NCBI GenBank assembly: GCA_012523075.1
Contig: JAAYJF010000061.1
Coordinates: 1-59,193 of the forward strand
Direction of reading: 5' to 3'
Origin: Clostridiales bacterium
GTDB taxonomy: Bacteria > Bacillota > Clostridia > Ch29
Length of the DNA stretch: 59,193 nt
The notes beneath the pieces are model-generated. The model was not told where the DNA came from and did not search any database. It worked only from the letters and a program-made list of their open reading frames with translations. Position 1 is the first letter of the stretch, and every line of letters begins with the position of its first letter. The translations under genes were made by a program, and so were the position numbers. Shown one piece after another: positions 9,722-53,341 of the stretch.

Positions 9722-9975
9722 TGATGTATAAAAAAAGTCCCTTCGCTTGGAAAGGGACGAGGACTACCCGCGGTACCACCCTGATTGGCTGCAATACCCA
9801 CTTAAAATGTACTGTAACGGGTAACCCCGGCTCGGCTTACTTTATTTTTTCAGCCTGCTGCTCCTGAGGGATTTTCACCGCCACACGCTACCGCATCGCA
9901 CCGTACCTGCAGCTCTCTGTTAACAGTTAACGGCTACTCTTCTCAATCATCGCACTAAAACTTGCAATTGTTTTA
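9722..9975 (-). promoter_or_regulatory. T-box leader upstream of ileS
   Basis: Minus strand carries the T-box core AGGGTGGTACCGCGGG, then terminator GTCCCTTTCCAAGCGAAGGGACTTTTTTT; candidate Ile specifier ATC in GAAAATCCCTC of stem I. Confidence 0.92.
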
Positions 9976-13746: not shown

Positions 13747-13823
<77 letters not shown>

Positions 13824-53037: not shown

Positions 53038-53069
53038 TTAAAAAACAGGGGCCAAAACGTCCCTGTTTA
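53038..53069 (-). terminator. Terminator of the UGA-containing DUF1858 gene
   Basis: Minus strand TTAAACAGGGACGTTTTGGCCCCTGTTTTTT. Confidence 0.8.
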
Positions 53070-53258
53070 AGAATACATCTTATTTAATTCTTCCACTATT
53101 ACATCGGCTTCTACGCCATAGGTTTGAGCTGCCCGCTCAATGCTCTTGTACAGAGCCCCGCCTCACCCAAAACATCGAATTCCGTACTTGTCAAATACTT
53201 CCTCGGCGTCGGGATGCTGTTTTAGTATATCCTTAATCTTGCTTTCTTTGCTATACAA
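53067..53258 (-). CDS. DUF1858-type redox protein, candidate selenoprotein with in-frame UGA (CxxU); not in the supplied ORF track
   Basis: GGAGGTG RBS, TTG start; MYSKESKIKDILKQHPDAEEVFDKYGIRCFG(UGA)GGALYKSIERAAQTYGVEADVIVEELNKMYS; UGA at 53163-53165 in the place of the second Cys of CxxC. Confidence 0.75.
53124..53140 (-). promoter_or_regulatory. Candidate bacterial SECIS stem-loop
   Basis: Minus strand TTGAGC-GGGCA-GCTCAA: perfect 6-bp stem, loop starts with G, 28 nt between UGA and loop. Confidence 0.6.
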
Positions 53259-53341
53259 ATATAACACCTCCAGATAATCCTGCTCCTATTATTATACTAC
53301 GGATTATTCGCTATGGATATACTTACTGCCGTTTTTCGGTC

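Follow-up and report, generated by a model that had tools for sequence, protein, structure and literature searches.

Selenoproteins of the DUF1858 family with a CxxU motif have been described in predicted form. Table 1 of Zhang et al. 2022 (PMC9312934) lists a "DUF1858 domain-containing protein, pfam08984, CxxU, WP_012065717.1" among predicted selenoproteins, and a DUF1858 CxxU selenoprotein is also listed in a 2026 review (PMC13188914). Here we analyzed a 59,193-nt stretch of DNA from a Clostridiales bacterium (assembly GCA_012523075.1, contig JAAYJF010000061.1), hereafter the window, whose minus strand carries a gene of the same kind. With high confidence, we interpret this locus as a functional gene for a 63-residue DUF1858/TIGR03980 selenoprotein with selenocysteine (Sec) at codon 32, whose insertion would be directed by a SECIS element and whose product would serve as a small redox or sulfur carrier. 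The features of the locus are as follows.

53067..53258, minus strand: whole gene of the predicted selenoprotein, TTG to TAA, 63 codons, DUF1858/TIGR03980 domain; frame conserved in relatives.
53163..53165, minus strand: in-frame UGA, predicted to be read as selenocysteine, residue 32 (C29-F-G-U32); TGA conserved.
53265..53271, minus strand: ribosome-binding site GGAGGTG, 6 nt 5' of the TTG, seen directly in the sequence.
53124..53140, minus strand: SECIS-like hairpin within the coding region, UUGAGC-GGGCA-GCUCAA, from fold, covariation and bacterial SECIS (bSECIS) constraints.
53038..53068, minus strand: probable intrinsic terminator (hairpin plus U-run) overlapping the stop codon, from RNA folding.

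Elsewhere, the window contains a T-box leader (129 bits; 9750-9959, minus strand) 5' of an isoleucyl-tRNA-synthetase-like gene, and a tRNA-Pro (GGG) at 13747-13823 on the minus strand.

The gene opens at a TTG codon (53258-53256) and runs through 31 codons, the TGA (53165-53163) and 31 further codons to a TAA (53069-53067). Sequence inspection and folding recovered exactly the layout given in the preliminary description, i.e., a minus-strand GGAGGTG, a TTG start, a 63-codon frame with a single UGA, a TAA and a terminator. The terminator-like hairpin with its U-run folds with a minimum free energy (MFE) of -11.3 kcal/mol (z -2.6); a pattern scan for terminators does not list it because its loop is long. 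Automatic annotation splits the gene into two pieces at the internal stop. Standard gene callers do not see the gene, so the selenoprotein has probably been missed in many clostridial genomes.

With the UGA entered as Cys, the 63 read-through residues match PF08984 (E 1.5e-10; 41.4 bits versus a cut-off of 32.2) and TIGR03980 (E 8.6e-16; 57.7 bits versus a cut-off of 44.95) in profile searches, and both matches cover almost the full domain and run through the UGA. The proposal that the two halves form one continuous DUF1858 domain therefore holds above the curated cut-offs of both families. In an alignment of 28 sequences, 14 of them Cys-type homologues, the UGA column is occupied by Cys in 14 of 14, which puts the UGA at the second Cys of CxxC and gives CxxU (C29-F-G-U32), as had been predicted. 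One of the Cys forms is a paralogue encoded in the host genome itself (C57:28162-28341), and the relatives of the window gene have UGA in this column. The AlphaFold2 model (pLDDT 93) shows a small helical domain with the four-helix fold of DUF1858/TIGR03980 and a TM-score of 0.89 to PDB 2k53. The two halves left broken by annotation are one gene, and its UGA most likely codes for selenocysteine.

The read-through protein was searched against 118 related genomes, in which G000 denotes the window genome and G001-G005 five others of its family. All five (92-58% identity) share this frame, interrupted by one TGA at the equivalent codon, and keep the GGAGGTG, usually together with the TTG start. 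Because the frame with one TGA at the same codon is shared by G001-G005, the in-frame UGA is not a chance occurrence. A single TGA at this codon is also present in G058, G084, G111 and G072. Scanning for a DNA pattern that includes the UGA yielded 46 matches, 44 in genome stretches and 2 in viral stretches. Alignment to the family split the 44 cleanly into 31 true loci (scores of at least 141) and 13 chance matches (48-70). The true loci, several of which come from genomes also counted among the 118, lie in Lutispora, Anaerosolibacter, Thermotalea, Maledivibacter, Petromonas and other clostridial genomes. Both viral-contig matches are chance by alignment score, bringing the chance matches to 15 of 46, and a phage link was rejected. 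Among the matches inspected, which included only part of those below about 37 bits, none was a Cys version of the CFGU-GGAL signature.

Conservation extends to both sides of the UGA. Between G000 and G001, dN and dS are 0.05 and 1.03 for the half after the UGA, and 0.04 and 1.00 for the half before it. Judged from these sequence comparisons, purifying selection acts on the half after the UGA; this half is not a dead one, because its dN and dS are like those of the first. These data bear directly on the possibility of a pseudogene or a sequencing error, i.e., that a Cys codon was mutated to, or misread as, TGA. Such an origin is at odds with the recurrence of this TGA in five family members assembled independently and in distant clostridia, with purifying selection on a second half that shows no decay in the host, and with an intact SECIS-like hairpin. 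It is very unlikely and largely refuted by conservation; the point in its favor, an incomplete set of Sec genes in the host assembly that could reflect a recent loss of Sec decoding, is considered below.

The bSECIS model, as quoted in PMC13188914, specifies a loop of 3-9 nt with a G in its first two positions, a stem of 4-16 bp, a spacing of 16-37 nt and an MFE of at most -7.5 kcal/mol. The hairpin of the window gene has a 6 bp stem, a 5-nt G-rich loop (GGGCA) starting with G, a spacing of 28 nt from the UGA to the apical loop and an MFE of -7.8 kcal/mol, in agreement with all four constraints, and it also covaries. In the first hairpin type (25 sequences), 91.3% of cells are paired versus 26-48% for a slid helix, 13 double changes are seen versus a shuffled mean of 5.6 (pair 27-41, for example, occurs as A-U, U-A and C-G), and pairing in the pair columns exceeds that in each of 2000 synonymous recodings of the set. 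The hairpin of a second group (Anaerosolibacter, Thermotalea, Maledivibacter, Petromonas, G072 and one more) sits closer to the UGA by about 5 bases and has a GG loop; it is 95.2% paired, and double changes occur there too. To control for constraint from coding, 1000 synonymous recodings served as the comparison for each sequence. The Sec forms are more stable than their recodings (mean z -1.39, n=14, 14/14 negative), whereas the Cys forms are not (mean z -0.04, n=22; Sec versus Cys, Mann-Whitney p 1.5e-5), the p values of the covariation and recoding analyses being indicative, as the sequences are related and less independent than p suggests.

The Sec machinery named in the preliminary description as a check on the gene is present in part: selA and selB are there and intact, whereas the draft assembly lacks selD and tRNA-Sec. 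The host selA (C97:5262-6632) and selB (C97:6668-8560) are adjacent, both open and both over cut-off (602.8 bits for selA). With dN/dS values of ~0.15 and ~0.13, respectively, neither is decaying, which again speaks against a pseudogene or sequencing error. Profile, tRNA and DNA searches of the host draft assembly found neither selD nor tRNA-Sec. A tRNA-Sec family match over cut-off at C153:7111 (47.5 bits) was rejected, being a tRNA-Ser with anticodon TGA by ARAGORN; the best SelD match, at C54:39610 (94 bits, below the cut-off of 125), was rejected as selD, and so was a PurM match. All five of G001-G005 have selD and tRNA-Sec; their SelD itself contains a UGA, and the tRNA-Sec has the anticodon TCA.

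The missing genes could mean that the host lineage lost Sec decoding very recently, in which case the gene would yield only a truncated 31-residue peptide in the host while being a selenoprotein gene in its relatives. In G002, selD lies between two genes that adjoin in the host genome, with no sequence gap at the host site, and tRNA-Sec is absent after the larA-like gene; both observations fit a loss. So does the result of the DNA search, in which neither the tRNA-Sec of G001 and G002 nor the selD-yedF-yedE stretch of G001 had a match in the host, where only the downstream flank of the tRNA-Sec was matched. However, G001 also lacks selD at the G002 site yet has two copies elsewhere, selA and selB show no decay, and the matched flank itself points the other way: the sequence 3' of tRNA-Sec in G001 is found on host contig C106 and ends at its last base (4455 of 4455). 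Because the flank stops exactly at the contig end, the host tRNA-Sec probably lies off the end of C106, in an assembly gap. Synteny thus explains part of the gap, so the missing selD and tRNA-Sec are more likely unassembled than lost, and a recent loss of Sec decoding appears unlikely.

The location of selD varies among the relatives. G002 keeps it at the selAB cluster; the two Sec-type copies of G001 (G001:C93:7902-8825 and G001:C51:20222-21142; L055, L057) lie away from that cluster, and one of them adjoins yedF and a YedE-type selenium transporter gene.

Across the genomes searched, the UGA form is present in 11, and 11 of 11 have selA over cut-off, compared with 18/118 overall (hypergeometric 3e-11 by genome, 0.005 by family). 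This distribution also bears on the alternative that a variant tRNA or an altered genetic code inserts another amino acid (Cys or Trp) at the UGA instead of Sec. Reassignment of UGA does occur in some bacteria. In the host, however, TGA serves as a stop elsewhere, e.g., selA ends at a TGA shortly before the stop of a longer frame, no UCA anticodon occurs among the tRNAs seen in host loci, and UGA forms are found only in genomes with selA, which makes this reading hardly credible. The UGA very probably encodes selenocysteine, its actual insertion being deduced from sequence. Formate dehydrogenase, considered as a second host selenoprotein, was uninformative, with fragments only, mostly at contig ends (formate-dehydrogenase-alpha-like pieces at G000:C179:13669-14691, C119:17948-18178 and C2:4-207).

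In the mechanism that we propose, the hairpin centred ~30 nt 3' of the UGA, within the coding sequence, would direct SelB and tRNA-Sec to recode codon 32 as selenocysteine. The product would be a single small helical domain with C-F-G-U where Cys homologues have CxxC, and its Cys-Sec pair may cycle between a selenylsulfide (or sulfur adduct) and the thiol/selenol form. Conservation of Sec at the motif's second position argues for redox or sulfur-transfer chemistry at precisely that residue. An NAD(P)H flavoprotein disulfide reductase may act as the reductant of such a small redox or sulfur carrier, and the host, too, would have such a partner.

DUF1858 proteins are common, with a putative redox function. 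The gene neighborhoods in relatives offer named, testable partners. In Lutispora relatives, the gene lies directly 3' of a thioredoxin-reductase-like flavoprotein gene and 5' of a SCIFF peptide maturase gene and pduL. The order thioredoxin-reductase-like flavoprotein gene, selenoprotein gene and SCIFF ranthipeptide maturase gene is seen at L087, L088 and L089 and at the Lutispora loci L099, L118 and L134. In Anaerosolibacter, Thermotalea, Petromonas and G072, the gene lies directly 5' of genes for a CoA-disulfide-reductase-rhodanese and a DsrE2-like sulfur carrier. In the host's own family, the gene has as neighbors a SleB-like hydrolase gene, aroC or a macrodomain gene, and pduL. These give no clear indication of the chemistry, and no flavoprotein or redox partner gene adjoins the window copy. 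Because two different NAD(P)H disulfide reductases adjoin the same small CxxU protein, these neighbors suggest that it is a reducible selenol/thiol carrier. A more specific proposal, which we put forward tentatively and hold to be possible rather than probable, is that the CFGU-GGAL-Y/F subfamily is a Sec-restricted DUF1858 branch and a dedicated selenol carrier of flavoprotein disulfide reductases, its partners being the thioredoxin-reductase-like enzyme in Lutispora relatives, and the CoA-disulfide-reductase-rhodanese and DsrE2 in Anaerosolibacter, Thermotalea and Petromonas. If true, this carrier would constitute a small selenoredoxin system distinct from thioredoxin.

Sec forms also occur in other DUF1858 subfamilies, both of the canonical CLGU-P and CVGU-P type (G111:C2 and G025:C160) and of the GCGU (GCGU-GG) type (G058:C31 and G111:C23). 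Because Sec forms are spread over several subfamilies, the sequences suggest several separate Cys-Sec exchanges at one residue in the DUF1858 family. Sec forms of these subfamilies (CLGU-P, CVGU-P and GCGU-GG) in selA-positive clostridia were recorded at L081:2026-2205, L084:2032-2202 (minus strand), L082:2022-2201 and L083:2039-2215.

Among known proteins close to the window protein are the Cys-type DUF1858/TIGR03980 proteins, described as hybrid-cluster-protein-associated redox disulfide domains (PDB 2k53 and 2k5e). The fold is alike (TM-scores of 0.89 and 0.81, respectively), and length and motif position are equal; however, the Cys-type proteins have Cys instead of Sec, with the signature CxGC-P-S/G-A-x-x-E-S, whereas the subfamily of the window gene reads CFGU-G-G-A-L-Y-K-S. 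A related small domain is the ScdA_N/DUF542 N-terminal domain of the iron-sulfur repair proteins YtfE/ScdA (PF04405 match, 8.8e-9), with TM-scores of 0.60-0.70 between YtfE structures and the model. The match is confined to ScdA_N/DUF542, and the hemerythrin-like di-iron domain of YtfE/ScdA is absent from the window protein. The DUF1858 CxxU entry in PMC9312934 is bacterial and has the same Pfam domain and the same CxxU with Sec in place of the second Cys, so that the window gene, going by the listed description, shares both domain and motif with WP_012065717.1. With such entries on published lists, DUF1858 CxxU selenoproteins are already known, and the window gene is a well-supported added case, to which the present analysis contributes the host lineage, the SECIS evidence, several Cys/Sec pairs within the DUF1858 family and, from flavoprotein neighbors, a hint of a small selenol redox carrier.
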